This document shows, one piece after another, positions 12,117 through 57,556 of a DNA stretch of 64,000 bases. The stretch is from Pseudomonadota bacterium (lineage in GTDB: Bacteria; Pseudomonadota; Gammaproteobacteria; Ga0077536), in NCBI GenBank assembly GCA_018668255.1, contig JABISZ010000035.1:1-64000 (forward strand), written 5' to 3'. Position numbers and translations under genes: made by a program. Every line of letters starts with the position of its first letter. Positions within the stretch are counted from its first letter, which is position 1. Below the pieces are notes generated by a model, which saw only the letters and a program-made list of their open reading frames with translations, was not told the DNA's origin and made no database searches.

Positions 12117-12698
12117 CTACCTAGGTTCAAGGTCTGCACGCGTGTCGATATCCTTAACGACACCATCGTTATTTATTTCGATAAAAGCCACATTAGATGA
12201 ATGACGCTGGATAATTTCCTTAGCCCCAGTATCTCCCTTTAAGTTAGTTAGTTCTTCTCTGTAGATCGCTGGAAATCCCACTGGATGTCCCATTTCCCCG
12301 CAAAACAGAGGCACAGTAATCTTGTTGGTCGAAGCCATCAGGCAAAGAATTTTATTAACTATAGTTTCTGTGACGAACGGCATGTCTGAGAGGACTATAA
12401 GGAAGTCAGTCCCCAGTGGAGCAGCCTGGACCCCATCGCTCAAAGTATGGGCCATACCTTTTATAGCATTTTCGGAATGAGTCACAGAAAAACCGTAGGA
12501 ATTAAGAACTGCACTCGTATCATTCTTTGGTTCTTCAACCATGATTAACATTTTACTGACAAAAGGGGCAATCACCGTTGCTACCCGCACGCAGATGGGA
12601 GTGTCTGAATCAGGAAGTACTGCGACTAATTTGTTACCACCGAATCTTCTAGACTTCCCTCCCGCGAGTAAAATTGCCGTGACTAGGTTGGTTTTCAT
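12117..12698 (-). CDS. mocA: Molybdenum cofactor cytidylyltransferase (MocA-type)
   Basis: A nucleotidyltransferase of about 193 residues beginning with LLAGGKSRRFGGNKL, the signature shared by MocA and MobA. Later DMPFV and GHPVGFP motifs fit MocA. MocA joins CMP to molybdopterin to give the dinucleotide used by xanthine oxidase-family enzymes. A matching enzyme is encoded at 41042-44822. The ATG at 12698 is favoured because it sits 7 bp after the xdhC stop; an in-frame TTG at 12734 would overlap xdhC. The separate MobA gene at 47921 has the GTP-type variant. Confidence 0.82.
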   Translation of the reverse strand: MKTNLVTAILLAGGKSRRFGGNKLVAVLPDSDTPICVRVATVIAPFVSKMLIMVEEPKNDTSAVLNSYGFSVTHSENAIKGMAHTLSDGVQAAPLGTDFLIVLSDMPFVTETIVNKILCLMASTNKITVPLFCGEMGHPVGFPAIYREELTNLKGDTGAKEIIQRHSSNVAFIEINNDGVVKDIDTRADLEPR

Positions 12699-12705
12699 TC
12701 TTAAT

Positions 12706-13671
12706 TCACTCAAGTCGACTGGATTTAATCTCAACTCGATTTCTAACGGCGGTTATCTCTGTGATGATGGAGAGTGCTATTTCCTGCGGCTTCCGGGTAT
12801 TGAGGTCGAGACCAATGGGCGCATGCAGGCGTCGTATGTCCTTATCCTTCATTCCAAAGTGAGTTTTCAAGCGGTCAGCTCTATTATAGGTTGTTCTTTT
12901 TGAGCCAAGCGCTCCTACATAAAAGGCGTCAGTTATTAACGCTTCCATAATAGCCATGTCATCTATTTTAGGATCGTGTGTTAAAGCCAAAACACAAGTC
13001 TGACGATCTGGCTTGGCTAATCGAACAAAATCATCAGGATAGTCAGTACAGATCTTACTTTCACCAAAAGGCCATGATTCTCTATAGTCCTCTCTAGGCT
13101 CGCAGACTTTGACTTCATAATCCATTAAGTTAGCAACTTGATAAACCCATTGTGATAATTCGCCCATACCGACAATTAAAATTTGCCAGTTCCTTTCGTA
13201 AAGAATGTCATAGGCCGCTGAAGAAAAGCCAGTTTTATCGTCATCTGTAGCCGCCCGCCAGGAAATTTCTAGCGTAGGAAGCGTGACACTACGAACAATG
13301 CTAATGCCATTTTTCAGTTGTTTCACCATTTCATCAAGGGCGTCAATAGAGTCTAGAGGTTCCAAAAGCAACAAGAGCGTCCCTCCACAAGGCAGTGTGC
13401 GTGTAGTTTCGGAGGAATACTCGATAAGCACGGCTTCTGTTGGAAATTCATTTTGAATGAGGCCTATTAATTCGTCCTCGATGCATCCTCCGGACACTGA
13501 CCCTACGAATTTCCTTGATTCAGATATTGCCATCACAGCGCCAATGGGCCGAGGTGAAGAACCCCACGTTTTTAACACTGTAGCAAGAACAACACGTTCT
13601 CCGGCAAGTTTGAAGGAAATCGCATCCTCAATAGTTTTCGCTTCACGTTGCATTACAGACCGCGGCTCCAT
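12706..13671 (-). CDS. xdhC: XdhC/CoxI-family molybdenum hydroxylase maturation factor
   Basis: A 321-residue XdhC/CoxI protein. The N-terminal domain has the VLKTWGSSPRPIGA and GSVSGGCIEDEL motifs and a conserved LPCGG. The C-terminal Rossmann domain has ILIVGMGELSQW and the GALGSKRT motif. XdhC proteins bind the molybdenum cofactor, help install its terminal sulfido ligand and deliver it to xanthine dehydrogenase-like enzymes. Together with mocA directly downstream, it should serve the CoxL-like enzyme 28 kb away. Its upstream neighbour mlaC is 105 bp away, so this gene probably starts a transcription unit. Confidence 0.88.
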   Translation of the reverse strand: MEPRSVMQREAKTIEDAISFKLAGERVVLATVLKTWGSSPRPIGAVMAISESRKFVGSVSGGCIEDELIGLIQNEFPTEAVLIEYSSETTRTLPCGGTLLLLLEPLDSIDALDEMVKQLKNGISIVRSVTLPTLEISWRAATDDDKTGFSSAAYDILYERNWQILIVGMGELSQWVYQVANLMDYEVKVCEPREDYRESWPFGESKICTDYPDDFVRLAKPDRQTCVLALTHDPKIDDMAIMEALITDAFYVGALGSKRTTYNRADRLKTHFGMKDKDIRRLHAPIGLDLNTRKPQEIALSIITEITAVRNRVEIKSSRLE

Positions 13672-41041: not shown

Positions 41042-41920
41042 ATGTATCCAGCACCTATAGAACAATATTCTAGACCCTCAACATTAGAAGAGCTGTACAG
41101 TCTTCTAAATTCTAATGAAGAAGATATTTTAGTCCTTGCAGGAGGGCAAAGCGCCATGCAAGCTGTAAAATCTCGCATACTCAGGCCTGCTCACGTCATC
41201 GATCTACAAGCGCTCTCTGAATTAAAATTCGTTAAGGCTGAAAAAGGCCTTCTTACAGTTGGAGCGATGACCAGGTACGTTGATATTGTATCTTCCGATT
41301 CAATCCCACTAGAACTGATCGCTTTGAAGGATGCGGCAAGTCGCGTTGGTGATAGACAAGTTCGTAACAGAGGAACTCTCGGAGGAAGCTTGTGCTGGAA
41401 CTATAGCGCCGCATGCACTCCGGCTGCTGTCTTAGCTTTAGACGGCGCAATGAACCTAATATCCCCTGATGGTTCAACTAGACAAGTCGCTGCCGATGAT
41501 TTCTTTCTAGGCCCTTTAGAGACTGCTCGAAAAGAATTTGAGATATTACTGTCTGTTGATTTCAAATTGACAGACTCTAAGTCTGGGAGTGCATATAAAA
41601 AATGGGGGCTAGTGACCGATGCATTGCCGGTTATAGGGATAGCGGCATGCTTGCACTTCAGTAATATGGACTGTTGCGACTACGCACGGATAACTTTAAC
41701 AGGTCTATCCGGAGCTCAACGTTGCCTGGGAGCAGAAGCGTCGCTCGTAAGCACCAGCGCGAATACAGAACAAATTACTGAGGCCATGATGATTGCTTGC
41801 AGTGAAATATCGACGTATACGGATTCCATAGCCACTGAGGATTATCGCTATCAGCTTATAAAAACAATCGGCTTGGAAGTTATAGAGACAGCAAAAAAAC
41901 GAGCTTTCAGCTTAGCATAA
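41042..41920 (+). CDS. Molybdenum hydroxylase FAD subunit (CoxM-like)
   Basis: 292 residues of the FAD-binding PCMH fold. The flavin motif AGGQSAM is near residue 40, and a second motif with TLGGSLCWNYSAACTPAA is near residue 122. The C-terminal CO dehydrogenase flavoprotein domain follows. It passes electrons from the iron-sulfur subunit to an acceptor. It is the first gene of the unit, with the small and large subunits after it in the order M-S-L. Confidence 0.92.
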   Translation: MYPAPIEQYSRPSTLEELYSLLNSNEEDILVLAGGQSAMQAVKSRILRPAHVIDLQALSELKFVKAEKGLLTVGAMTRYVDIVSSDSIPLELIALKDAASRVGDRQVRNRGTLGGSLCWNYSAACTPAAVLALDGAMNLISPDGSTRQVAADDFFLGPLETARKEFEILLSVDFKLTDSKSGSAYKKWGLVTDALPVIGIAACLHFSNMDCCDYARITLTGLSGAQRCLGAEASLVSTSANTEQITEAMMIACSEISTYTDSIATEDYRYQLIKTIGLEVIETAKKRAFSLA

Positions 41921-41933
41921 ATGGGGGGCCGGT

Positions 41934-42416
41934 ATGGTGGCTAAAGTTGCAATTAATATTAACGGAAGACTGTTTCAAGAAGAAGTGCCAGAGAGGATGC
42001 TATTGGTAGATTTCATTAGAGAGCGTGCCCATCTCACAGGCACCCATATCGGATGTACCTATGAAGGAGTATGTGGCGCATGTACAGTACATTTGGATGG
42101 CGAGGCTGTTAAAAGCTGTATGCTGCTGGCCGCACAAGCTGATGAACATAAGGTTACAACAGTGGAAGGCTTGGCACCGGATGGAGAACTCACGCCATTG
42201 CAAGAGGCTTTCAAATCTGAACATGGTTTGCAATGTGGATTTTGCACAGCGGGCATTTTGATGAACATGACTGATTTCTTGAAAAGATATCCCAACCCAA
42301 GTGAGCAAGAAATCAGGGAAGGTCTGATTGGCAATTTATGCAGATGCACTGGCTATGTGCATATCATCAATGCTGTCCGCAAAGTTGTGCAAGAAAACCA
42401 ATCAAGAAAAACGTAG
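41934..42416 (+). CDS. Molybdenum hydroxylase 2Fe-2S subunit (CoxS-like)
   Basis: 160 residues. The plant-type cluster is bound by Cys41, Cys47, Cys50 and Cys62. The second cluster, nearest the molybdenum, is bound by Cys101, Cys104, Cys136 and Cys138. All eight ligands are intact. It relays electrons from the molybdenum centre to FAD. The gene starts 13 bp after the FAD-subunit stop and ends 12 bp before the large subunit. Confidence 0.94.
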   Translation: MVAKVAININGRLFQEEVPERMLLVDFIRERAHLTGTHIGCTYEGVCGACTVHLDGEAVKSCMLLAAQADEHKVTTVEGLAPDGELTPLQEAFKSEHGLQCGFCTAGILMNMTDFLKRYPNPSEQEIREGLIGNLCRCTGYVHIINAVRKVVQENQSRKT

Positions 42417-42428
42417 GAGACATAAGAC

Positions 42429-44822
42429 ATGTCCCAGAGAAAAAATGACGACTGGATGGGAACCCCGCTTCCCCGAAAAGAAGATCGCAGACTACTCACC
42501 GGGAAAGGAAAATATGTCAGCGACATCGTCATTCCCGGCGCACTTCATGCCGTTTTTGTCCGTAGCGAATATGCGCACGCAAAAATATTGTCTATCGACA
42601 CATCTGAAGCCGAAGAATTGGCAGGTGTTGAACGGATATATACAGGGGACCAGATCAAACACCTAATAAAATCTATGCCACAACCAATTGTTCAACCGGC
42701 TCTTCCTGCTCACTACCCCACTTTTTGGCCATTAGCTGTTGATAAAGTCACATTCCACGGAGAGCCAGTAGCACTTGTTATCGCACGCGATAAATATGTT
42801 GCAGAAGATGCTGCTGAATTAGTGTTCGTTGATTACGAAGAACTAGAGCCGGTTTTAGACCCGGAAGAAGCCCTCAAACCTGAATCGGCGATTATCCATG
42901 AAAAAGATGGCACGAATGAAATATTTTCGATGACCTTCACCGGTGGAGATACAGAAGCAAGTCAAGCCAAAAATGCCGCTGAAGTAGAAAAAATCTTCCA
43001 AAACGCACCTATAGTGGTCAAAGACAGATTTAAAACCCATCGCACTGGAGTCACGCCAATGGAGCCCAGGGCGATCTTGTGTGATTGGGATGATTCCGAT
43101 GGCTTGCTCGCATACATTACGACACAACGGCCTCATATCGATAGATTAGCATTATCCGACATACTGGATATCTCTGCAGAAAAAGTCCAAGTCATCGCGC
43201 CTCGTGATCAAGGAGGCGGCTTCGGAGTCAAAGCACCCTTCTACAGAGAAAACATAATTATTGCTCACGCGGCACGCGACTTAAAACAGCCAGTGAGATG
43301 GGTTGAATCTCGATATGAAAGCTTGATGAATGTAGGGCAAGAAAGAGATCAAATTAATGACATGGAAATTGCTGCGGATCTAGAAGGCAATATGCTGGCA
43401 CTGCGTAATTTTGGTCTCGCTGACAATGGCGTTGGAACGACAGGCGTATACTGGGGTTTCGTCATGCCTTTCTTGGGCGCGATAGAGCTACCAAACGGAT
43501 ACAAATGGCCAAAGGCTGATATCCGTCTCAAAGTCGCAACTACCAACAAGGCTTGTTTAACACCCTCAAGAGCCTTTGGGCATTTCCCGACTCGTTTCGC
43601 AATTGAACGTTGTATCGATATGGTCGCCCATAAGATTGGGATGGAACCCAGTGCGTTTCGTAGAAAGAATTTAGTAGCTGACCTACCTTACACCAGCATA
43701 ACAAACGAATACTTTGACAGTGGCGATTTCCTAAAAGTCTGGGATACACTAATGGAAAAAGCCAATCTTCCTGACTTCAGAGTCCAACAGAAAAATGCAC
43801 TATCAGAAGGAAAATACATTGGGATAGGATTCGGGTGCGGAGTAGAACTGTCAGGAGTCGCTTCAGAGCTATTTGTGCCCATGGAAAATCAACCCGGATA
43901 CGGGGCTGCGACTGTGCGGCTCGATCCCAGAGGCAAAGTCCAGGTCTTTGGTGGCGATGCGCCGGGAGGGCAGGGTCATGAAACAACGACTGCACAAGTC
44001 GTCGCTTCTGAATTCGGCATTTCTCCTGAAGATGTCATAATAACAACGGGAAACACAGGTAGTACTCCGTTTGGCTCTGGTTCAGTTGGAGCTCGCATGG
44101 GGTCTTATTTCATCAGCGCGGTGGCTGAAGCCTGTAGAGAATTAAAAACCAAAATTGCTAAATTCTTAGCACATGACTTACAACTAGAAGCATCAGTTGA
44201 ACATTTTGAATTCAAAAATGGAGAGGTTGTCTATTTAGGCGACGATTCCCAGCGTAGCTCTTTCATGTCTATTGTTGAACGTATCATCATGTTTCCGATC
44301 AATATGCCAGAGGGAGAAACCGGCGGATTAGACGCTACGACTTTTTTCGAGGCTGCCAAGCCTATGATTTGCTTTAATGCTGATTGTTGCGTGGTTGAAG
44401 TGTCTTTGGAAACCGGTGATTTCAAAATATTAAAGTGGATAACAGCCGAAGATGTAGGAAACGTAATAAATCCATTAATTGTTAACGGCCAAATGCACGG
44501 AGCTATTGTTCAGGGCATATCTAACACTGTGTTCGAAGAATTTGTTTACGACGAACAAGGCCAACAATTGACTGCTGATTTTGAACATTACAAAATGGCT
44601 AATGCTGCAGACGTTCCCAACATTGATCTCAACTATGCCACCACGCCTTGTCCTCATACGCCTTTAGGCACTAGAGGTATTGGGGAAGGAAGACCTAGCT
44701 CTGTGCCAGGCGCGCTTACAAATGCGGTTTGTGATGCTCTAAAACCCTTTGAAATAGAGATCACCACTTTGCCACTTCGGCCAGATGCTATCTGGCAAAA
44801 AATACAAGATGCCACTCAGTAA
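42429..44822 (+). CDS. Molybdenum hydroxylase large subunit (CoxL-like), non-CO type
   Basis: 797 residues of the xanthine oxidase/CO dehydrogenase large-subunit family. Molybdopterin-binding motifs are seen in RDQGGGFGVKAPFY and GGDAPGGQGHETTT. The catalytic glutamate is Glu753 in TRGIGEGR. The loop at residues 379-385 reads PSRAFGH, replacing the AYRCSFR of form I CO dehydrogenase and AYRGAGR of form II. Ala382 aligns with the Cys388 that binds copper in true CO dehydrogenase. So CO oxidation is unlikely; hydroxylation of an aldehyde or heteroaromatic compound is the general alternative. The substrate is unknown. Confidence 0.9.
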   Translation: MSQRKNDDWMGTPLPRKEDRRLLTGKGKYVSDIVIPGALHAVFVRSEYAHAKILSIDTSEAEELAGVERIYTGDQIKHLIKSMPQPIVQPALPAHYPTFWPLAVDKVTFHGEPVALVIARDKYVAEDAAELVFVDYEELEPVLDPEEALKPESAIIHEKDGTNEIFSMTFTGGDTEASQAKNAAEVEKIFQNAPIVVKDRFKTHRTGVTPMEPRAILCDWDDSDGLLAYITTQRPHIDRLALSDILDISAEKVQVIAPRDQGGGFGVKAPFYRENIIIAHAARDLKQPVRWVESRYESLMNVGQERDQINDMEIAADLEGNMLALRNFGLADNGVGTTGVYWGFVMPFLGAIELPNGYKWPKADIRLKVATTNKACLTPSRAFGHFPTRFAIERCIDMVAHKIGMEPSAFRRKNLVADLPYTSITNEYFDSGDFLKVWDTLMEKANLPDFRVQQKNALSEGKYIGIGFGCGVELSGVASELFVPMENQPGYGAATVRLDPRGKVQVFGGDAPGGQGHETTTAQVVASEFGISPEDVIITTGNTGSTPFGSGSVGARMGSYFISAVAEACRELKTKIAKFLAHDLQLEASVEHFEFKNGEVVYLGDDSQRSSFMSIVERIIMFPINMPEGETGGLDATTFFEAAKPMICFNADCCVVEVSLETGDFKILKWITAEDVGNVINPLIVNGQMHGAIVQGISNTVFEEFVYDEQGQQLTADFEHYKMANAADVPNIDLNYATTPCPHTPLGTRGIGEGRPSSVPGALTNAVCDALKPFEIEITTLPLRPDAIWQKIQDATQ

Positions 44823-44842: not shown

Positions 44843-45409
44843 TTGGAATTAAATGATGAAGTGCTTATTAAAGCTGAAAGAGAAAAGGTTTTCCTGGCGT
44901 TAAATGATCCAGATATTTTACAAAAAGCGATACCTGGATGCGAGCTGATTGAAAAGCTATCTGCGGATAAGTACAAGGCTACTATTGTATCAAAAATCGG
45001 TCCCTTGAAAATTCGTTTCAAAGGAGAAGCGACGATCTCAGAATCAAAGTTCCCTTCAAACTATAAAATTACTGGAGAAGGAAGAGGTGGTCCGGCCGGA
45101 CACGCTAAAGTGGTCGCAAATGTAGTGTTGCGTAAAGAAGAGTCATCCACTCGTCTAGCCTACACTGTACACGCCGACATTGGCGGGAAGCTGGCTCAAC
45201 TGGGAGGCCCCTTGGTGGAGAAGACAGCGCAAAAGCTATCCGCTAATTTTTTTGAGAATTTAGATACTCTTTTGTTAGCAAACACCCCAATGGAAACAGA
45301 CGATATGATTATCTCTTCGCCGGACAAAACCCCGTCATACTGGGACAAAGTTAGCGGTATATCAGTTGTTGTGGCAATAGGTATTCTGGCCTGGGCAATG
45401 CTTAAATAA
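44843..45409 (+). CDS. CoxG-like SRPBCC protein with C-terminal membrane anchor
   Basis: 188 residues. The SRPBCC domain (residues 1 to about 145) shows the CoxG signature FLALNDPDILQKAIPGCE and a GEGRGGPAGHAKV segment. The last 20 residues form a hydrophobic helix (VSGISVVVAIGILAWAML), which would anchor it in the membrane. CoxG recruits CO dehydrogenase to the membrane in carboxydotrophs and was recently tied to quinone delivery. It starts with TTG, with GGAG six bases upstream. Confidence 0.87.
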   Translation: MELNDEVLIKAEREKVFLALNDPDILQKAIPGCELIEKLSADKYKATIVSKIGPLKIRFKGEATISESKFPSNYKITGEGRGGPAGHAKVVANVVLRKEESSTRLAYTVHADIGGKLAQLGGPLVEKTAQKLSANFFENLDTLLLANTPMETDDMIISSPDKTPSYWDKVSGISVVVAIGILAWAMLK

Positions 45410-45479: not shown

Positions 45480-46493
45480 ATGAGTAGAGCGCCAGAGAGA
45501 TTCCCAGAGAAACTCGTCGACAAGTTCGGGCGAACAGTAGATTACGTGCGGATATCTGTGACTGACAGATGCGATTTCCGTTGTGTTTATTGCATGGATG
45601 AGGAGATGGAGTTTCTCCCTCGAGACCGTATCCTGACTTTAGAGGAACTAGAGTTAGTCGGGACAGCATTTGCAGAGTTGGGAGTAACAAAAATACGGCT
45701 TACTGGTGGCGAACCATTAGTACGAAAAGACGTCATCACGCTAATCGAAAATTTAGGAACAATACAAAGTCTAAAAGAGTTAGTAATAACTACAAACGGT
45801 TCACAATTAGTCAAATTAGCGTTGCCTTTAAAAAATGCTGGCGTGAAAAGAATCAATATCAGTTTAGATTCCCTAAATCCAAAAAAATTCAAAGAACTCA
45901 CAAGAACCGGTGAACTCAAACAGGTCCTTGACGGAATCAAAGCCGCTAAAGCAGCTAATTTCGAAAAAATAAAAATCAATGCCGTGATTTTAAAAAATAG
46001 AAACGATGATGAAGTTAAAGCATTAGTTGATTTCTCCGCAGACAATGACCTTGATATATCCTTCATTGAAGAAATGCCTTTGGGTGTTATAGGAGAACAT
46101 GATAGGGCCGAGGCATATTACTCTAGCGATAATATTAAAGCGGATTTGGAAAAGCATTACACATTAATACCTACTCCTGAAACTACGGCCGGTCCGTCAA
46201 AGTATTTCCGCGTCGCAGAAACTGGCGCTCGTATTGGTTTTATTTCTCCTCACAGCCATAACTTCTGTGACGACTGTAATAGAGTGCGTCTAACCGCAGA
46301 GGGAAGATTGCTCTTGTGTCTGGGGCAGGAACATTCGGTTGACCTCAGGGCTGTACTGAGAACCTACCCTGGCGATATCAATAAGCTGAAATCCGCAATC
46401 GTTGACTCTATGGATATAAAACCCAAAGGACATGACTTCGACCTAAGTGTGCAACCATTAATATTCCGTCATATGAGTCACACCGGCGGCTAA
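45480..46493 (+). CDS. moaA: GTP 3',8-cyclase (molybdenum cofactor biosynthesis)
   Basis: 337 residues. The radical SAM cluster ligands are Cys31, Cys35 and Cys38. The second, C-terminal cluster is seen in [19 protein letters not shown]. The protein ends in Gly-Gly, which is essential in MoaA. It converts GTP to the 3',8-cyclo intermediate; MoaC finishes precursor Z. It follows the CoxG-like gene by 70 bp on the same strand. Confidence 0.95.
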
Positions 46494-46569: not shown

Positions 46570-47262
46570 TTGTTCGACTCTAACTCAGCTCTAATCTCTG
46601 CTTTTTCGATGCTCCTAACAGGGGATAGAGAAGTTTGGTCAGCTATCGGTGTTTCGTTTTCAGTCTCCTTGCGTGCAATTCTCATTGCGTCCCCTCCCGC
46701 AATTGCAATAGCATTCCTCCTCGCATACAAATCTTTTCCAGGAAGGCGATTAGTTCTGACTATAACCAACACTTTAATGTCGGTTCCTGCGGTTGTTGTT
46801 GGCCTCACTGTTTATCTTGCTTTGTCTAAAAATGGTATAGCAGCTGACCTCAGATTACTATATACCCAGCCAGCTATGATTATCGGCCAAGTTATTATTT
46901 GTTTTCCTCTGTTAGTTGCAATGGCTCATGCTACTTTCGTAGCTGGCGACAAACTAGCGTATGAAACTGCTCGTACCTTAGGAGCTAAACGCATCCCAGC
47001 AATGCTCACCGTCTTTCTCGAGTTGCGATTTGGTTTGCTGGCCGCAGTAATTGCTGGATTCAGCAGGATAATTGCAGAAATTGGCTGCTCTATGATGGTT
47101 GGTGGCAATATTTTAGATCACACAAGAAATATCCCGACAGCAATAGCCTTAGAAACCAGCAAAGGAGAATTTGCAATGGGAGTAGCGTTAGGCATCGTTT
47201 TGCTGTCACTCACTATGCTACTGAACGTACTGCTGGCGATGTTCCAAGGTGATGGCCAATGA
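46570..47262 (+). CDS. tupB: Tungstate-type ABC transporter permease (TupB-like)
   Basis: 230 residues and about six membrane helices. The motifs VVVGLTVYLALSKNG and EIGCSMMVGGNI, followed by TRNIPTAIALETSKGEFAMG, are those of TupB/WtpB tungstate permeases rather than ModB. The predicted start is TTG with AAGG upstream. Its stop overlaps the ATPase start by 4 bp. The periplasmic binding protein that sets specificity (TupA) is not in this window, so tungstate versus molybdate specificity is open. Confidence 0.83.
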   Translation: MFDSNSALISAFSMLLTGDREVWSAIGVSFSVSLRAILIASPPAIAIAFLLAYKSFPGRRLVLTITNTLMSVPAVVVGLTVYLALSKNGIAADLRLLYTQPAMIIGQVIICFPLLVAMAHATFVAGDKLAYETARTLGAKRIPAMLTVFLELRFGLLAAVIAGFSRIIAEIGCSMMVGGNILDHTRNIPTAIALETSKGEFAMGVALGIVLLSLTMLLNVLLAMFQGDGQ

Positions 47263-47924
47263 GCTTAGCTAATAGGGCACGGTCTCTCACGGCGAATAAG
47301 TTAACCTTTATACGCGACACTAGATTAATACTTGATTGCAAGAGTATGAAGATACAGAAAGGCGAACTTGTTCTATTAACTGGCCCAAACGGTTCTGGGA
47401 AAACGACTCTCCTTAAGATATTGGCTGGACTAATAACAGCGGATACCGGTGAGTTTATGCTAGGAGAGAAAAGTTTTACCAGCTTTAAAGCACCTAAGTA
47501 CTTAATCGGGAAATGTATTTATTTACACCAAACTCCCTACATGTTCCGCGGGACAGTCCTCCAGAATTTGAGTTATGGCTTGAGAAGAAAAGGATTGAAA
47601 AATAATGAAGTAAGGCCTTTGATAAATCAGGCCATCAGAAAGAATAAGCTTAGCCACTTGACTGAAAGAATGGCATCAACGCTCTCGGCTGGGGAGCAAC
47701 ATCAGGTAGCTTTAGTTAGAGCACAGATATTGAAGCCTCCTGTTTTGCTATTAGATGAAATCACCGCGCATATGGACCAGGAAGCGCGTGGTAGGACATT
47801 CGAAATAATAAAAACGCTACAGGAGGAAGAAATTTCTATTATTTTTGCAACCCATGACGATGAAACCATTAAAACATTACCCGGCACATTCCTTCATATA
47901 GACAACGGTTGTTTGGCTTTATGA
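47259..47924 (+). CDS. tupC: ABC transporter ATPase (TupC-like)
   Basis: 221 residues. Walker A is GPNGSGKT at 42-49, the Q-loop is in LHQTPYMF, the signature motif LSAGEQHQVAL, and Walker B LLLDEIT, with the ATHDD switch. The C-terminal regulatory TOBE domain of ModC is absent, which fits TupC. It powers the permease encoded upstream. Its stop overlaps the mobA start. Confidence 0.85.
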   Translation: MSLANRARSLTANKLTFIRDTRLILDCKSMKIQKGELVLLTGPNGSGKTTLLKILAGLITADTGEFMLGEKSFTSFKAPKYLIGKCIYLHQTPYMFRGTVLQNLSYGLRRKGLKNNEVRPLINQAIRKNKLSHLTERMASTLSAGEQHQVALVRAQILKPPVLLLDEITAHMDQEARGRTFEIIKTLQEEEISIIFATHDDETIKTLPGTFLHIDNGCLAL

Positions 47925-48556
47925 CCCCGGAACTGAAAAGTGACATTACTGGTTGTATTTTGGCTGGAGGACAGGGGATCCGTATAGGGGGAAAAGACAA
48001 AGGATTGATAACTCTAAATGGAAGATATTTATCTCAACACTGTATAGAACGTCTGTCTCCGCAGGTAGGTTCTATCATCATAAGCGCCAACAGGAACATA
48101 CCTGTTTACGAAAGCTTTGGATGCATTGTGGTACAAGATAAAACAGATAACAGCAATGGACCCCTAAGCGGCTTTCATGGTGCTTTAGAAGCAGCTACAA
48201 CAACTTTTGTGGCTTTCACTCCATGCGATGCACCATTTTTCCCGCAAAATCTTGTTGAGAAACTGGCTGAGCCTTTTTCTAATGATAAAGTTGAGATTGC
48301 AGTGGCAGTTGTTCGAACCAAACACCAACCGGTGTTCGCCATGGTTAAAAGTAATTTAGAGAATTCATTAGCTATATTCTTAGAAAACGGCGGGAGAAAA
48401 ATCCGCTCTTGGTTCGATTCCAGAACTTGCGTAACCGTCGAGTTCGATAACGAGAGTCAGTTCATGAATATCAATAGCCCGTCCGATCTCGAAGAAGCAG
48501 AACTATGGTCCAAGCAAAATCAAACTACTGCCAATGATGTTAAAACTGAAAGATGA
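47921..48556 (+). CDS. mobA: Molybdenum cofactor guanylyltransferase
   Basis: 211 residues. The N-terminal LAGGQGIRIGGKDKGL motif is the MobA nucleotide-binding signature, followed by QDKTDNSNGPLSGF and TPCDAPFFP. MobA attaches GMP to molybdopterin, giving the guanine dinucleotide used by DMSO reductase- and formate dehydrogenase-type enzymes. No such enzyme is in this window. It overlaps tupC by 4 bp and the convergent DUF1302 gene by 17 bp. Confidence 0.87.
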   Translation: MTPELKSDITGCILAGGQGIRIGGKDKGLITLNGRYLSQHCIERLSPQVGSIIISANRNIPVYESFGCIVVQDKTDNSNGPLSGFHGALEAATTTFVAFTPCDAPFFPQNLVEKLAEPFSNDKVEIAVAVVRTKHQPVFAMVKSNLENSLAIFLENGGRKIRSWFDSRTCVTVEFDNESQFMNINSPSDLEEAELWSKQNQTTANDVKTER

Positions 48557-50141
48557 TACTTAGATCCGTTTCATGTCGACTGTTCTCGCTAGTTTGCCCC
48601 CAGATATCACCCAAGCCCCACGGGCCGGGATCATTATTGAACGCCCGCCAATATATGTGCTGCTGAAAGCGCAATAATATATTATCTGACCAGAAGTAAT
48701 CGACTTTTAATTTGTTATAGGCCCCCGTTGATCTAGGGTCGAATGCCATTAAAAAACTTGGCTTTAGAAGCCCCGCCGCTCCGTATGCAGTGGATGCCGA
48801 AAACGTCATGACGAACTCATCACGATCGATACGATCAGTATTTTCGGCAATATATTTCCCAGACACGACTCGTCCGTCAAACGTTGCTTGCTTAACAGTC
48901 GACATGCCTCGGTAGTATGGGTTGTAATCGATATAGTGCCGCCAAAATATCTGCGAAGACAGGAATACAGTTCTTGTCTTATTCAAAGATCTAATCCATG
49001 TTGGTCTATCCGCCGCAATCATAACCACGGTGCGCCTGGCTGTATCATATTGATCCCTATCAGGATCAGCGGACATGGGGGCATCAGCCGATAATTTTAC
49101 GGGGATGCCTGTTGTAAATGTCGTTTCCATGCGCAAGACCGATTGCGTAAATCGCTCATCCGAATAATTCGCAGTAAACCCTAATACATGCGTTCGCGGA
49201 TTCACGATATCTTTAACCGTGTAAAAAGTATTGTCTATCGTTTGAGACAAGTTTTTCTGTACCTGAATGCCGGTATCGGCCGAAAAGCCGTAAAAATAAT
49301 TAAGGCTGAAGTCGATGTCTCCCCAGATAGCCTTAAACCTCACACCAGCTTGTCCATTTGTAAGCTTTTTATTTGGCCTACGATTCCTCATTTCAGTATC
49401 AAGGTCCAGTAGCAAGCCATCTTTATAAATAGCATTAGCTGTTTTGTTCAACCCATTCCCGGTGAACGCCCAAGGTTTTCGAGGGTCAGTAGATATGTTG
49501 TTTTCTCTAAAGTCCGTAGGGATCCAGATCCCTTCTACGAATGATTCATCAAACCATGCAAATTTTCCAATATCATAAATTCCTCGCGCCATCCAAAGCG
49601 GGATTCGTATATCTTCCCAGGATTCCCTACTCCAATGCCAACTCAAATCAAGCGGATTGATAACGTCTAAAGCTCTAAAACCATCTGTCTCTCCCCAAAC
49701 AACCTGTTGTCGGCCGAGCCTTAAAGTAACGGGAGGGAGAACAACATCCACGAATGCTTCACGAAGGCTTGCTTCGGTGCGACCATAACGCCCATCAGAT
49801 TTACTGAAAGCCTTGTCATAGGAACTTCGCACATCGTAGATGGAATCATAAACACCTCGCCCCGTAACCGTTAAGGTCGCCTCTTCTATGGGCCCCGTAT
49901 TGAAAAGTCCAAATGCCTGACTGTCCTTCAAAAAGTAATACTTACCTTCCAATTGCGCAGTATTACGTTGCATGATCGCTTCCGCATGTTTGAACTTAGG
50001 TGTTCGTAAAATATTTTGAAATTTAACAAACCCCTCAAACTCAAGTTCTGTTCCAACGGAGACAATTGCAGATAGATGAGTAGTGAAAAAAAATAAACAA
50101 ACGCCGGCTATAGCCAAATAAGGCCTAATATACTTTTCCAT
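48540..50141 (-). CDS. DUF1302 family outer-membrane beta-barrel protein
   Basis: 533 residues with an N-terminal signal sequence. The defining DUF1302 motif is present as LRLGRQQVVWGETDGFRALD followed by VINPLDLS. The chain ends in Phe, as outer-membrane barrels do. DUF1302 proteins commonly pair with DUF1329 lipocalin/LolB-like proteins, as here (5 bp apart), and occur near genes for oxidation of hydrophobic substrates. The function is not established. It lies inside the cofactor gene region but on the other strand. Confidence 0.85.
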   Translation of the reverse strand: MEKYIRPYLAIAGVCLFFFTTHLSAIVSVGTELEFEGFVKFQNILRTPKFKHAEAIMQRNTAQLEGKYYFLKDSQAFGLFNTGPIEEATLTVTGRGVYDSIYDVRSSYDKAFSKSDGRYGRTEASLREAFVDVVLPPVTLRLGRQQVVWGETDGFRALDVINPLDLSWHWSRESWEDIRIPLWMARGIYDIGKFAWFDESFVEGIWIPTDFRENNISTDPRKPWAFTGNGLNKTANAIYKDGLLLDLDTEMRNRRPNKKLTNGQAGVRFKAIWGDIDFSLNYFYGFSADTGIQVQKNLSQTIDNTFYTVKDIVNPRTHVLGFTANYSDERFTQSVLRMETTFTTGIPVKLSADAPMSADPDRDQYDTARRTVVMIAADRPTWIRSLNKTRTVFLSSQIFWRHYIDYNPYYRGMSTVKQATFDGRVVSGKYIAENTDRIDRDEFVMTFSASTAYGAAGLLKPSFLMAFDPRSTGAYNKLKVDYFWSDNILLRFQQHIYWRAFNNDPGPWGLGDIWGQTSENSRHETDLSIIFQF

Positions 50142-50146
50142 TGAGG

Positions 50147-51430
50147 CTACCTTCGTCCGCTAATCATATTTCGGAGACTGTAAAACTGTTTTGCTCGCGC
50201 TTCTGTGAATTCACGTTTTTTAACGTAACAATGCGTCATCGTGGCATGAGGCTTCTTAGCATTGATATCAGATTCACCCAAATGCAGAAAAACGTGATGA
50301 CCAACATTCTCAGAGAAATCTTGCTTTATATAAGGGGCTTGCTGTGGGGTTTCGTATGCGTAGCTCTCAGAATATTTAAGGTAATGCTGATTCATTCTTA
50401 ACAAGTGGTTATCTTCCCGGTCGAAAGCAAACATCCAAAGAGACCAGTTAGTATCGGCATCAATAAAAACGATGCGGCTGCTATAGGGATGATTATCGAC
50501 TGTAGGGTGCATAAGCACCACGTGCGCTTTACGCACCTCCCACCGCGTTTTATGTGGCACCCATAAGTGAGGGCCTCCGAATTCCGGATTGTCTGGCACA
50601 TTGATAGTAGCGAGGACGGATTTAGTTCCAAGATATGTCCACGAGTTTTCATAGACTTTACCGCCAAAGCCATTCATGTCTTCCCGAATCATATCCATCC
50701 CCATCAATTCGCTGGTGCGCTCCGAGGCAAGCGTCTTTCTGGGCTTCCGTTGTGAGGGCATATACATCCAGCCAGAGTTTTCTCTATCATGATCTACGTA
50801 AGAAATTGACATGTCTTTCGCCCCAGCCATGTCACGTGGCGACCTAAACTCCATGACCCGTTTTGTTTTAACTTCTTCATATCCTTCTACCAAACAGTGA
50901 TCTCCCCGGCTGTAAGTAGAAGCGATAGAAGTAAATTCCAATTTGCGGTCTAGCCTTCCCCCCTCGCCTCTTAACCAAGTTGTCATGGGCATTACGAAGT
51001 CAACTTGTCCCGGTCTCCAAAGCATATTCCATATCACTTTTTGGCCGGCAAATGGGTCTTCGTTTTTTATATCTTGAAAAGGAAATCCTCCCCCTTTGAA
51101 TCCCACTAAGACGCCTCGATCATCTAAGTGATAGTCGTCGTTCATGTGCTGCCCCCATTCTGGTGGAGCTGGGTACACACCAGTCGCAGCAATCTCCATA
51201 TCCATCCCATCGAAAATGTAATACTTCCAAGCAGATTGAGGTATCAAGGCCTCTAAATGGGAAGATCGATCTTCTAACCCAAGGTGGGTTCCAGTCTCAA
51301 TAGGTTCAAAAGGGATAGGGTTGGTTATCCAATCATAGAGACGATCATAACTCTGCTCATCGTTAGCCCAAGAAAAATGCGCAAACACACAGAGAACCAA
51401 AAAGAGTAATTTTTTTGGCACACCAAACAT
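50147..51430 (-). CDS. DUF1329 family periplasmic LolB-like protein
   Basis: 427 residues from the ATG at 51430, where a signal peptide ending in AHFSWA begins; an earlier in-frame codon at 51487 would place extra residues before it. The body matches DUF1329: DMDMEIAATG-like, RVMEFRSPRDMAGAKDMS and WMYMPSQRKPRKT segments. The domain has a LolB-like beta fold by family knowledge. It precedes the DUF1302 barrel gene on the same strand, suggesting a periplasm-to-outer-membrane pathway for a lipid or hydrocarbon. Confidence 0.85.
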   Translation of the reverse strand: MFGVPKKLLFLVLCVFAHFSWANDEQSYDRLYDWITNPIPFEPIETGTHLGLEDRSSHLEALIPQSAWKYYIFDGMDMEIAATGVYPAPPEWGQHMNDDYHLDDRGVLVGFKGGGFPFQDIKNEDPFAGQKVIWNMLWRPGQVDFVMPMTTWLRGEGGRLDRKLEFTSIASTYSRGDHCLVEGYEEVKTKRVMEFRSPRDMAGAKDMSISYVDHDRENSGWMYMPSQRKPRKTLASERTSELMGMDMIREDMNGFGGKVYENSWTYLGTKSVLATINVPDNPEFGGPHLWVPHKTRWEVRKAHVVLMHPTVDNHPYSSRIVFIDADTNWSLWMFAFDREDNHLLRMNQHYLKYSESYAYETPQQAPYIKQDFSENVGHHVFLHLGESDINAKKPHATMTHCYVKKREFTEARAKQFYSLRNMISGRR

Positions 51431-51649
51431 AAATAATCCCTCAGACTTAGAGGTTGTGAGAAAATTGAAGTCCGTCACGACCGACAAATTAGTAGTTAAA
51501 CATCATACTTTAGAAGCCCATAGACTTAAATCAGTTTTTAAACAAAAAAGAAATAATGACCCGTGACGTGATTCGATATTCGCGTAGGATAAAATAAGAC
51601 ACCCATTTTTAACTTGCGAATGACCTAAGGAAGAGGATAATTAGTTTCT

Positions 51650-52916: not shown

Positions 52917-53843
52917 TCACAGCTTTATATCCATCCCGTCTTGAGCAACTTCCCAACCGGCTTCACTAACAAGTTTTCTTTCCATAGAATCAGAAGCCAG
53001 AATAGGGTTCGTTGTATTTATGTGGATGAAGATTTTACGTTTTACATTTAATGAGGCAAAAGATTGTAAAGTCCCTTCTTTTCCAGAAACGCTCATGTGT
53101 CCCATTCTCCCCCCTGTTTTCACTCCCACCTGCTCTTTAATCATTTCGTCGTCCACCCATAAAGTTCCATCAAAAAACACCAGCTCTGCATTTTTAAGTC
53201 GCTCTGAGAGCGATACAGTCATTTGTGCACAGGCCGGGACGTAGAAAAACTTAGACCCATCACGCGCAGCTATTTCGAGAGCTATCGTATCTTCATCAAC
53301 GGTTCCAAAATTATCTCCCGCTGTTTTATCTTCCAACCACAACGCAACTTTGCCAGGAACGGAAAATGGAGTGATAGTCAGGCCTATTTCGCTCCCATCG
53401 AAAGCAGAGAGTTCACAACGATCATCTAACATTACAGTTTTTCTAGCTACAAATTGTGGGTTCAAGACGTTAAAAATAGTGTTGTCCTTTAACACAGATA
53501 AAACTCTGTCTGTCCCATATAGATTTAGAGGTTGAGACTCACGCAAATTTAGCAGACCGGCAACATGATCGACATCAGCATTAGTTAAGACAATCGATTT
53601 AATCGGACTGTGTCGTAATCCCTTTTTCGGATGGAGTATTTCATTGTCGTTTATCTGTTGCCTTAAATCTGGAGACGCGTTAAGTAAGACCCAATTCTCG
53701 CCATCAGCACTTACGCACAAGGAAGATTGTGTCCTAGCAGTAGCATTGATATCGTTAGCCCGCGCACGTCGACTGTTAGGATGATTGCAATTCCATTGGG
53801 GGTAGCCTCCTCCTGCTGCAGAACCTAATACTCGTATTCTCAT
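52917..53843 (-). CDS. pqqB: PQQ biosynthesis protein PqqB
   Basis: 308 residues of a metallo-beta-lactamase fold. VLGSAAGGGYPQWNCNHPN at the start and NADVDHVAGLLNLRE are diagnostic. PqqB is thought to hydroxylate a tyrosine of the PqqE product. The ATG at 53843 is favoured. It lies 24 bp downstream of moaE in a moaD-moaE-pqqB run, separated from pqqCDE by about 2.5 kb. That placement is unusual. Confidence 0.94.
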   Translation of the reverse strand: MRIRVLGSAAGGGYPQWNCNHPNSRRARANDINATARTQSSLCVSADGENWVLLNASPDLRQQINDNEILHPKKGLRHSPIKSIVLTNADVDHVAGLLNLRESQPLNLYGTDRVLSVLKDNTIFNVLNPQFVARKTVMLDDRCELSAFDGSEIGLTITPFSVPGKVALWLEDKTAGDNFGTVDEDTIALEIAARDGSKFFYVPACAQMTVSLSERLKNAELVFFDGTLWVDDEMIKEQVGVKTGGRMGHMSVSGKEGTLQSFASLNVKRKIFIHINTTNPILASDSMERKLVSEAGWEVAQDGMDIKL

Positions 53844-53867
53844 CAAAACACCTCAAAAAAAATCGCA

Positions 53868-54320
53868 TTAAAAATCAGCACTGCTGCCAGATGTATTTTT
53901 CGTAACCCATCGTTCCCCATCTTCACGTTTTTCTCTCTTCCAGAAAGGAACGTTGGATTTCAAGGATTCCATAATATCTCTACACGCATCAAAAGAATGA
54001 GCTCGATGAGCTGACCATACTGCAACCAACACGATAGGGTCACTCGGATAAACCTCACCTATACGATGTATAACTAAAACGTGATCGAGAGACCATCGTT
54101 TCTCCGCTCGGTCAGTAATTTTCTCTAGTTCCTTAACAGTCATCTCGGGGTGATGTTCTAGGTACATTGACTCGACAGAGACACCATCATTGAAATCTCT
54201 CATACTTCCAATAAAAATCGAGGATGCACCGATTTTTTTTCTTCTGCCATCCAACTCTTTTTCGGTTTGCAACAATAGGTCGTATGGCGAAAATGGCTCT
54301 TTAGACAACCTAACCGTCAT
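53868..54320 (-). CDS. moaE: Molybdopterin synthase large subunit
   Basis: 150 residues. GASSIFIGSMRDFNDG and YLEHHPEMT match MoaE, and the catalytic Lys region VPFWKREKREDGERWV is present. With MoaD it adds two sulfurs to precursor Z. Only two bases separate it from moaD. Confidence 0.94.
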   Translation of the reverse strand: MTVRLSKEPFSPYDLLLQTEKELDGRRKKIGASSIFIGSMRDFNDGVSVESMYLEHHPEMTVKELEKITDRAEKRWSLDHVLVIHRIGEVYPSDPIVLVAVWSAHRAHSFDACRDIMESLKSNVPFWKREKREDGERWVTKNTSGSSADF

Positions 54321-54322
54321 AT

Positions 54323-54556
54323 TTAACCTCCTGTTAGAGGAGGGAAATAAGCAACTTCGTCTCCGTCTTTCAGCAGTTGATCCGGCTCACAATAATCATG
54401 GTTGATTGCATAAAGACAACCCACTGGCATTTGTGCAGTACCACAGACAGATTGCCATACATTAATGACGTTCAGCTGGCTCTCAAACTCAACATCTATC
54501 TCCTTCATACCAACCAAATCAGTTAAACTAGCGAAAAATTTCACTTTAATACTCAT
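54323..54556 (-). CDS. moaD: Molybdopterin synthase sulfur carrier
   Basis: 77 residues, ubiquitin-like fold, ending in FPPLTGG. The final Gly-Gly is adenylated by MoeB and then thiocarboxylated. moeB is not in this window. It starts the moaD-moaE-pqqB run and is divergent from moaC. Confidence 0.92.
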   Translation of the reverse strand: MSIKVKFFASLTDLVGMKEIDVEFESQLNVINVWQSVCGTAQMPVGCLYAINHDYCEPDQLLKDGDEVAYFPPLTGG

Positions 54557-54637
54557 ACGTAACCTCTAACAACACTATAAATTTATTCTATTTAGCGCTA
54601 TTTTAACCTAACAAACGAAAGGATTCATATTAACGAC

Positions 54638-55120
54638 ATGTCAAAACTAACCCACTTAGATAAAGATGGTAAAGCAAAAATGGTTGATGTGGGGGATAAA
54701 ACTCCGACCAAGAGGACCGCAATTGCCACAGGAAGAATTTCCATGAAGCCAGAGACACTTAATCTAGTTATATCTGGGACAAACAAAAAAGGAGATGTCT
54801 TAGCTGTCGCTCGAATCGCTGGAATCATGGCGGCCAAGAAAACAGCTGACTTGATTCCGTTGTGCCATCCATTAAGTATAACTAGGATTGACATTGATCT
54901 GGAACTAGACATAGAAAAATCCACCATAAATTGTACCGCTTTGGTTGAAACAATCGGACAAACTGGCGTTGAAATAGAAGCGCTAAATGCGACGCAAGTT
55001 GCTTTGTTGACTGTTTACGATATGTGTAAAGCGGCGGACAAAGGAATGGCTATTAGTGAGGTGATGCTCAAAGAAAAACGTGGTGGGAGATCAGGCCATT
55101 GGTCTCGAGAGGAAAGCTAG
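54638..55120 (+). CDS. moaC: Cyclic pyranopterin monophosphate synthase
   Basis: 160 residues. The catalytic region [34 protein letters not shown]-type segment and the [11 protein letters not shown] motif are intact. It converts the MoaA product to precursor Z. The FkbM methyltransferase gene starts 8 bp later. Confidence 0.94.
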
Positions 55121-55128
55121 GGGATTTA

Positions 55129-55893
55129 ATGAAGTCGGAAAAAATCAAGAACTGGTCTCCACCTTCAACATGGCAGGAAAAACTGAAAGGCATTCTGCCT
55201 GGTAGCTGGTATCTTAACCATTTACTTAAAAAGCACCTACGTAAAGGAGAACCTGAACTCAAACTACTTCCCTTCTTGGTCGATAAAGGAAAAGATGCGG
55301 TTGACGTTGGGGCGAACAAAGGAGTCTATAGCCGAGCTCTCTCTGAACTGACAAACACCGTCTATGCCTTTGAACCGAATCCAAAAATGTACAAAATACT
55401 GTGTTCGGGCAAGACAAAAAAAACAAAAGCTTACCAAGTAGCTTTGTCCAACCAAAGCGGAATAGCTAAACTCCTCATCCCACATAACTTAAAGAAAAAT
55501 ACTTATTCCAATCAGGGAGCCAGCCTTAGTTCTACAAAAGTGTCTGGTCACCACCAGGCAATAGAGATCGAGTCGAAGACGCTAGACTCTTATGCTCTTA
55601 AAAACATTGGCTTCCTGAAAATTGATGTGGAAGGCTTCGAGCTCTCCGTTATAGAAGGTGCCTCTCAGACAATTGCATTCAACAAACCCACTATGCTAGT
55701 GGAGCTTGAGGAGCGTCATACCGATATTCCAATAGAAAATCTTGTCGGCCGTATAGAAAAACTAGGCTATAAAGCCTATTTTCTTATCCACACTAATTTA
55801 ACCCCTTTTTCACAATTTAATGCTGAAAAAATGCATCGTGGCGCAGCAGGAACGAAACACTATGTTTATAATTTTATATTTCTACCCGTCTGA
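55129..55893 (+). CDS. FkbM-family methyltransferase
   Basis: 254 residues. The SAM-binding motif is AVDVGANKGVYSRAL, then YAFEPNP, and LKIDVEGFELSVIEGA is the FkbM signature. The ATG at 55129 is chosen because it follows the moaC stop by 8 bp; an in-frame GTG or ATG inside moaC is less likely. FkbM enzymes methylate sugar or polyketide hydroxyls. Nothing around it belongs to a glycan or polyketide pathway, so its substrate is obscure. Confidence 0.85.
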   Translation: MKSEKIKNWSPPSTWQEKLKGILPGSWYLNHLLKKHLRKGEPELKLLPFLVDKGKDAVDVGANKGVYSRALSELTNTVYAFEPNPKMYKILCSGKTKKTKAYQVALSNQSGIAKLLIPHNLKKNTYSNQGASLSSTKVSGHHQAIEIESKTLDSYALKNIGFLKIDVEGFELSVIEGASQTIAFNKPTMLVELEERHTDIPIENLVGRIEKLGYKAYFLIHTNLTPFSQFNAEKMHRGAAGTKHYVYNFIFLPV

Positions 55894-55906
55894 ACAGGGG
55901 AAATTC

Positions 55907-56296
55907 TCAGTTCTCTGAATCCCAGTAATCAAAGTTACTACCGGCAGGAATACCTTGCAAAGGAGAATCTGATTCTGTTGCAGGGTTCCAATCAAGTGCC
56001 TCATCAATTTTGATCGCAAGCGCAAAATCTTTCCCAGTAACTCCGCCGGCATCGTGGTTGGTAATTCGCACACCTACCTTCGCATACGAAACGCTTAAAT
56101 CAGGATGATGCCAGGCGATTTCAGCAAAATGTCCAATCACACCGACAACCATTAAAGTGCTCTTCCATCCTGAAGTTTTGTATTCGCGCCACAAGCTATT
56201 GTCCCGCAATTCCCAATGCGGCAAGTCAAGCATGAGTCGCTTTCGAATTTCGGCATAAGTGCAGACAGTATCCGTTTTCGTCCCAGAAGAGCTCAT
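55907..56296 (-). CDS. phhB: Pterin-4-alpha-carbinolamine dehydratase (PhhB-like)
   Basis: 129 residues. The conserved HHPDLSVSYAKVGVRI motif carries the His-His pair of the family, with THD/NHDAGGVTGKDF after it. The enzyme dehydrates 4a-hydroxytetrahydrobiopterin. Phenylalanine hydroxylase, its usual partner, is not in the window. Related proteins recur in molybdopterin-enzyme genomes. It lies between fkbM and pqqC, on the opposite strand to both. Confidence 0.85.
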   Translation of the reverse strand: MSSSGTKTDTVCTYAEIRKRLMLDLPHWELRDNSLWREYKTSGWKSTLMVVGVIGHFAEIAWHHPDLSVSYAKVGVRITNHDAGGVTGKDFALAIKIDEALDWNPATESDSPLQGIPAGSNFDYWDSEN

Positions 56297-56421
56297 AATA
56301 TCGTCTCCTTTTAATTAAACAGTAACCGAGTCCCTGCTTATATTGTTTAGATTAAAAAAATCTCGTAAGTATTTAATATTAATAGCATTATTTGAAATAT
56401 TTTTTTGGCGAAATAATAACT

Positions 56422-57303
56422 ATGTTATATTCTAAGGTCATAAATCTAACATATACAAACAAACAAACACACCAGTCGTATGCTAAGATTGTGTCTTATA
56501 CGCATAGCAAGCTGAGGTTTCACAGATTGGGATTATCTACTATTTATAGGCCAGCACGAAGTTCGGACGATGCCTGGACTGTACAGGAGTTTGAAAGAAA
56601 GCTGCGACAAAAAGAGCATTTTTATCATATAAACCACCCGTATCATGTACTCATGTCGGAAGGCAAAATGAATAAAGCGGGGATACGAGGTTGGGTAGCA
56701 AACCGATATTATTACCAAAAATCAATTCCAATTAAAGACGCTGCAATACTTTCTAACTGCAGCGACAGAGTGGCGCGTCGCCTTTGGATACAGAGACTCA
56801 TCGACCATGATGGCGACGAAAATGACACCGGCGGCATCAATGCATGGTTACAACTAGGATTATCGGTTGGGCTAACTGAGGAAGAGATTCTAGATGAAAG
56901 GCATGTCCTTCCAGGTGTTAAATTTGCTGTGGATGCTTACGTGAATTTTGCTCGGTCAGCAACATGGGAAGAAGCTGCCTGCTCGTCTCTAACTGAAATG
57001 TTTGCGCCTAAAATTCACCAAAACCGATTAGACAGCTGGCCGGAACACTATCCTTGGATTAAAGCTGATGGCTATGTCTACTTCAAAAAACGACTCGGTG
57101 AAGCTAGACGAGATGTCGAGCATGGACTGCGTGTTACGGTGTCTCACTTTGTCGAGCGGCATGAACAAGAGTTTGCCCTGAATATTTTGCAATTTAAATT
57201 AGACGTTCTTTGGACCATGCTCGATGCTATGTGGATGTCTTATGTAGCCGACATGCCGCCTTATTTTTCATGCAATAAGAAACCTAAACACAACGATGAT
57301 TAA
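56422..57303 (+). CDS. pqqC: PQQ synthase PqqC
   Basis: PqqC homology starts at [10 protein letters not shown] and shows [30 protein letters not shown] and the EMFAPKIH helix, all intact. PqqC carries out the final ring closure and oxidation of PQQ. The open frame runs about 45 residues upstream of the homologous part, through AT-rich low-complexity DNA. Possible starts are TTG 56392, ATG 56422 and TTG 56527; the last gives a protein of normal length. The start given here is therefore uncertain. The stop overlaps pqqD by 8 bp. Confidence 0.85.
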
Positions 57304-57556
57304 CCAGATGCCCTCTTTATCTTCTATGTACCGCTTTCAGTGGGAAGAAGCTCAAAGCGGCTATGTGTTGCTTTATCCCGAGGGAATGGTGAAACTGAGC
57401 CGCACAGCTGGGGAAATCTTAAAACGCGTTACCGGGAAAACTACTGTCAAACAGCTGGTTTCAGATCTAGAAACTGAGTTCCCAGGGTCTGATCTCGAAC
57501 CCGACGTCCTTAATTTTCTAACGGAGGCAAAAGAAAATGGCTGGATCTCTTTCTAG
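57296..57556 (+). CDS. pqqD: PQQ biosynthesis chaperone PqqD
   Basis: 86 residues with the PqqD signature [18 protein letters not shown] and a C-terminal LTEAKENGW. It presents the PqqA peptide to PqqE. It overlaps pqqC by 8 bp and pqqE by 20 bp. Confidence 0.92.

Follow-up and report, generated by a model that had tools for sequence, protein, structure and literature searches.

The coxM-coxS-coxL-coxG unit

The window, that is the whole stretch of 64,000 nucleotides analysed here, carries a gene unit in the order coxM-coxS-coxL-coxG, which is intact according to Pfam domains and open reading frames. The genes of the unit and the diagnostic segments of its large subunit are the following:

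41042..41920, plus strand: coxM-like FAD subunit, 292 aa (PF00941, 127.7 bits; AGGQS and NRGTLGG motifs)
41934..42416, plus strand: coxS-like subunit with two 2Fe-2S clusters, 160 aa (PF01799 and PF00111)
42429..44822, plus strand: coxL-like molybdopterin subunit, 797 aa (PF01315, PF02738 and PF20256, above gathering score)
43200..43226, plus strand: PRDQGGGFG, residues 258-266 of CoxL, with one additional residue ahead of the conserved GGGFG
43563..43583, plus strand: active-site loop PSRAFGH, residues 379-385 of CoxL, by alignment with reference loops
44685..44687, plus strand: codon of the catalytic Glu753, in a GIGEG motif aligned to the catalytic Glu of the references
44843..45409, plus strand: coxG, 188 aa (PF06240, 103.4 bits; C-terminal membrane helix)

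The 797-aa frame of coxL contains no internal stop. Purifying selection acts on the three subunits of the trimer and on CoxG, dN being well under dS both between two same-genus homologues (0.047 against 1.03) and in the comparison with a 99%-identical copy (0.004 against 0.16); the locus is thus a product neither of chance nor of decay. The deduced proteins carry the features of the xanthine oxidase family, namely a hammerhead and two molybdopterin domains with the GGGFG and GxGE motifs in the large subunit and, as regards cofactors, two 2Fe-2S clusters and an FAD subunit. The sequence-only reading of this DNA had reported a CoxG and a full 2Fe-2S subunit, and both are borne out by the PF06240 match and by CoxS, in which eight of eight cluster cysteines are present (41, 47, 50, 62, 101, 104, 136 and 138). 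The hydrophobic helix of CoxG corresponds to its last 19 residues, as it does in the homologous loci L009 and L012. An AlphaFold2 model of CoxL, built from a six-sequence alignment, has a mean pLDDT of 42.7, too low for any reading of the pocket.

The active-site loop and the relation to CO dehydrogenase

Translation and alignment place PSRAFGH at residues 379-385 of CoxL and the retained Glu753 within GIGEG, in agreement with what had been read from the sequence. When the protein is aligned with solved and characterised enzymes, whose loops read AYRCSFR, AYRGAGR, AYRGVG and AYRAPG, the segment PSRAFG falls on the active-site loop common to the family, A[YFM]RxxG; an AYR motif, whose appearance after realignment would have told against the earlier reading, did not emerge, and the loop stays PSRAFG. 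The loop Arg is conserved, the Cys of the copper position is absent, and the oddity consists of Pro-Ser where the family has Ala followed by Tyr, Phe or Met. Ala382 occupies the position of the copper-binding Cys of form I CO dehydrogenase (CODH), and therefore no Mo-Cu site like that of CODH is to be expected. Phe383 falls, in the published loop register, on Phe914 of bovine xanthine dehydrogenase, one of the two phenylalanines flanking bound aromatic rings (PMC3624778).

The form I loop, Cys included, is longer by one residue, so that the general A[YFM]RxxG loop is the proper term of comparison. This loop occurs throughout the family and varies with the substrate, as AYRGVG, AYRAPG, AYRCSF or AFRGFG, the last being that of bovine xanthine dehydrogenase and nicotinate dehydrogenase (PMC8305194). 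The contrast with the CODH loops drawn in the sequence-only reading stands in that neither the Cys nor AYRGAGR is present, and is less striking than it had seemed because such loops differ across the whole family (PMC8305194). In a survey of 9,462 CoxL-like genes only 329 were of form I (PMC13203968); a further CoxL-like clade distinct from CODH is hence expected and not surprising.

On a rival reading the enzyme would be a CODH, whether a form I enzyme whose loop has degenerated or one of form II. The best PDB match by sequence is the CoxL of M. smegmatis (426 bits), and the M-S-L gene order together with CoxG is that of form I. With the two form I enzymes of known structure (O. carboxidovorans 1n5w and M. 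smegmatis 8uem) the window enzyme shares the L-M-S trimer, the M-S-L order followed by coxG, the three molybdoprotein domains and the catalytic Glu; in contrast, it lacks the AYXCSFR Cys loop, its loop is one residue shorter, and it is not monophyletic with characterised CoxL proteins but lies on a separate branch. Moreover, its scores are half of the curated cut-offs or below (456 bits with TIGR02416, cut-off 991; 474 bits with NF040766, cut-off 950). As regards form II, the AYRGAGR group is the nearest phylum-wide by profile score and has a non-Cys loop of equal length; it differs in the sequence of the loop (AYRGAGRP vs PSRAFGHF), has no residue added before GGGFG and clusters with form I, apart from the PSRAFG proteins. 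The gene order coxS-coxL-coxM, used as a criterion for form II (PMC13203968), is not that of the window (M-S-L). With neither Cys nor AYRGAGR in the loop and a position outside the fully supported branch of form I and AYRGAGR proteins, membership in CODH was rejected, loop, score and tree all being against it, and a CO-oxidising function is extremely improbable.

 Quinoline 2-oxidoreductase (1t3q), the second-best solved match, has the same trimeric composition and loop length, but its loop is AYRGVG and it occupies its own 100/100 branch. 6-Hydroxypseudooxynicotine dehydrogenase KdhLMS (7dqx) is also a trimer and has an Ala after the loop Arg (AYRAPG vs PSRAFG), while its loop contains Tyr and Pro and its branch differs. 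The AFRGFG enzymes, bovine xanthine dehydrogenase and nicotinate dehydrogenase, share the R-x-F-G core with a Phe at the stacking position Phe914, and differ in having A-F ahead of the Arg, where P-S is found here, and in a distant overall similarity. The scores with XdhA and XdhB (309 and 203 bits) fall below the respective cut-offs of 780 and 849, and E. coli XdhA and XdhD branch apart from the PSRAFG clade.

Altogether, domain content, motifs, scores and tree position argue for an L-M-S heterotrimer that belongs with the molybdenum hydroxylases of the xanthine oxidase family and is distinct from CODH; it would act on an organic substrate and be linked to the membrane by CoxG; this is considered quite likely.

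An enzyme group seen here in one bacterial order

Orthologues of the window CoxL (68-99% identity, clade A) were found in 28 of the 36 genomes of the order, belonging to eight of its ten genera, and coxM is the first gene of the unit in these relatives; the genomes of the order are largely metagenome assemblies. The loop PSRAFGH is present in 26 genomes of the order, the sole variations being S to C or H to N. A paralogue group (clade B) with 44-47% identity occurs in six genomes of the order and displays the loops PSR[AS]FGS or PVRAFGS; at its loci (L070-L075) the genes are arranged as coxM-S-L and coxG was not detected, unlike in clade A; the long open frames that flank clade B on GC-rich contigs carry no weight in this account. 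The genome to which the window belongs (G000, 2.3 Mb) also encodes three further xanthine oxidase-family proteins on contigs C105, C89 and C15 (loci L002, L079 and L080), among which L002 is a CoxS fused to CoxL (967 aa) and L079 has the loop AYRAPG.

The phylogeny was examined by two maximum-likelihood trees from which the loop columns were excluded, with a small reference set that left out nicotinate dehydrogenase, bovine xanthine dehydrogenase and archaeal glyceraldehyde dehydrogenase as full sequences. Clade A and the paralogue group are united in one branch with 100/100 support; a second and separate branch, also at 100/100, holds form I CODH together with the AYRGAGR (form II) proteins. 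The deeper placement of the PSRAFG clade is supported at only 72.5/61. The proposal that the loop marks a clade is thus upheld with full support by trees that do not contain it; likewise, the clustering with characterised enzymes that would have contradicted the earlier reading was not observed for CO, quinoline, 6-hydroxypseudooxynicotine or E. coli xanthine-type enzymes, nicotinate dehydrogenase being outside the tree set.

The distribution was also followed at the DNA level by a degenerate pattern that covers the loop together with its flank and was run on 369 genomes of Gammaproteobacteria, representing about 255 families. All matches are confined to this order with the exception of one (G536), in which unrelated residues come after TPIRGFG; it is probably due to chance, according to the rate estimated from the information content of the pattern. 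A profile built from the clade scored 1476 bits against the window protein, nothing else sampled across the phylum (398 genomes) exceeded 646 bits, and all of the 29 closest phylum-wide relatives have the AYRGAGR loop without the extra residue before GGGFG. This residue is present in both clades A and B and absent from every reference or related sequence aligned; it is, as judged from the alignment, a second clade marker. The phylum-wide search was restricted to Pseudomonadota, and beyond the phylum it extended only to a plasmid collection and to a scan of genome contigs for close relatives: the 72,556 plasmid records contained no match that reached 60% identity (the best among the matches listed being 37%), and the contig scan found nothing outside this group. 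The proteins make up a well-delimited enzyme group, which came up here in a single bacterial order; they are best described as a new subfamily within the xanthine oxidase family.

Gene neighbours and candidate substrates

The part of the locus that is conserved across genera is coxM-S-L-G alone, the flanks varying by genus. In the window, candidate genes for molybdenum cofactor supply lie both directly downstream of the unit and at a distance from it:

45480..46493, plus strand: moaA, GTP 3',8-cyclase, 70 bp past coxG (TIGR02666, 365 bits, above cut-off)
46570..47262, plus strand: TupB-like permease of tungstate/molybdate type (NF038017, 193.6 bits, above cut-off; NF041773 TupB, 159.5 bits, below its cut-off of 320)
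47259..47924, plus strand: ABC ATPase, overlapping the permease gene (PF00005 and position)
47909..48556, plus strand: mobA-like gene, overlapping the ATPase gene (reading frame assigned by eye; syntenic in the genus)
12117..12734, minus strand: MobA/MocA-like NTP transferase, candidate for MCD synthesis (PF12804, 101.6 bits)
12706..13671, minus strand: XdhC/CoxI-family maturation factor (PF13478 and PF02625)

In the window genus the unit runs on one strand into moaA, the permease, the ATPase and the mobA-like gene with short or overlapping spacings, an arrangement which suggests a shared molybdenum cofactor supply; the order coxG-moaA recurs in two genomes of this genus, G004 and G005. No gene for a substrate-binding protein adjoins the permease-ATPase pair (46570-47924, plus strand). 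The distant MobA/MocA-like and XdhC/CoxI-family genes overlap each other (12117-13671, minus strand) and are candidates for MCD synthesis and sulfuration, the former being tentatively assigned as MocA because xdhC adjoins it. Between 39.9 and 58.7 kb of the window, on both strands, moaA and mobA-, moeA-, moaE- and moaC-like genes are interleaved with pqqB-, pqqC- and pqqE-like genes (52917-58691); HMM support concerns moaA, the others having been recognised by eye. A DUF1302 and DUF1329 pair (48540-51487, minus strand) is located between mobA and moeA, and its synteny is kept in the genus.

Outside the window genus, a gene for an SMP-30/gluconolactonase lies near coxM in eight of the 12 loci examined, and in 13 genomes the lactonase is within 6 kb of the unit. 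In two genera it is joined by histidinol dehydrogenase-like, acetoacetate decarboxylase-family and SDR-like genes and a TetR regulator, partly with a cupin. A close orthologue of the lactonase was found in 22 genomes, and each of these (22/22) also carries a clade-A coxL; six genomes have the clade-A coxL without the lactonase and eight have neither gene. For this co-occurrence the Fisher test gives p 1e-4 (p 0.02 in high-quality genomes alone), with the proviso that the genomes are related and the counts are not phylogenetically independent. In the window genus the lactonase gene is on another contig (in the window genome G000:C77:3281-4192, L139) and not beside the unit. Near L139 lie a gene for a regulator of LysR type, a DoxX-like gene and one that, as read by eye, probably encodes a Baeyer-Villiger monooxygenase; given the separate contig and this last neighbour, the lactonase of the window genus may serve another enzyme there. 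A literature search retrieved no molybdenum hydroxylase described together with a gluconolactonase and CoxG.

In the catalytic cycle expected from knowledge of the family, Mo-MCD in CoxL, with Glu753 as the base and the PSRAFG loop presumably at the active site in place of the usual A[YFM]RxxG, would hydroxylate the organic substrate, and the electrons would pass through the two 2Fe-2S clusters to the FAD of CoxM and from there to the quinone pool, CoxG acting as a membrane anchor or as a quinone carrier. CoxG is reported as the electron carrier from CODH to the quinone pool (PMC13240472, citing Kropp et al. 2025). In Sulfolobus, glycerol-3-phosphate dehydrogenase is anchored by CoxG-like proteins, which have also been proposed for 3-hydroxypyridine dehydrogenase (PMC11962113). 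The product might be a lactone or become one, starting from an O-heterocycle or from a lactol or aldehyde. A lactone-yielding reaction is the best guess, though a doubtful one; it is drawn from the SMP-30 linkage and from the precedent of the Mo-dependent 2-furoyl-CoA dehydrogenase, the product of which turns into a lactone that has no hydrolase assigned to it (PMC6678421).

Two narrower versions of the molybdenum hydroxylase reading can be considered. The enzyme may oxidise aldehydes or aldoses, as a dehydrogenase akin to the archaeal glyceraldehyde dehydrogenases, in a sugar-acid pathway with the lactonase, whose linkage would fit; the top NCBIfam model for each of the three subunits is indeed glyceraldehyde dehydrogenase alpha, beta or gamma. 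The scores with NF041018-20 are, however, 497, 184 and 204 bits against cut-offs of 790, 350 and 290, and the archaeal-type solved homologue 4zoh reaches 280 bits, below CODH and quinoline oxidoreductase. Membership among the glyceraldehyde dehydrogenases was rejected on the failure of the cut-offs for three of three subunits, and an enzyme of this general type is rather unlikely. Slightly more credit, still tentative, can be given to a hydroxylase of an N- or O-heteroaromatic ring, whose substrate would be of quinoline, pyridine or furan type and might be presented as a CoA thioester: quinoline 2-oxidoreductase scores 416 bits, Phe383 at the Phe914 position could stack a ring (PMC3624778), and both the proposed role of CoxG in 3-hydroxypyridine dehydrogenase (PMC11962113) and the lactone of furoyl-CoA dehydrogenase (PMC6678421) are in keeping with it. 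On the other hand, the PSRAFG clade does not cluster with quinoline enzymes and no gene for an acyl-CoA ligase or for ring cleavage is conserved next to the unit across genera. An acyl-CoA ligase was considered as a conserved neighbour and discarded, its close orthologue being found at only two loci of one genus.

A bolder version, and an unlikely one, even less favoured than the preceding two, is that of a molybdenum hydroxylase restricted to this order and acting on a new class of substrates: the PSRAFG loop and the extra residue of the GGGFG strand would reshape the pocket, a dedicated SMP-30 lactonase in series would open the oxygen ring, and the electrons would reach quinone via CoxG.

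Within the broader reading as a molybdenum hydroxylase of organic substrates, the clade bears on the annotation of the family, in which homology alone can count CoxL-like proteins as CO dehydrogenases: having the form I gene order and CoxG together with a loop devoid of the copper-binding Cys, its members could be miscounted as evidence of CO oxidation. If the substrate is found, the clade would also test to what extent the active-site loop governs which substrates the molybdenum hydroxylases accept, and whether these enzymes are in general linked to the membrane by CoxG.
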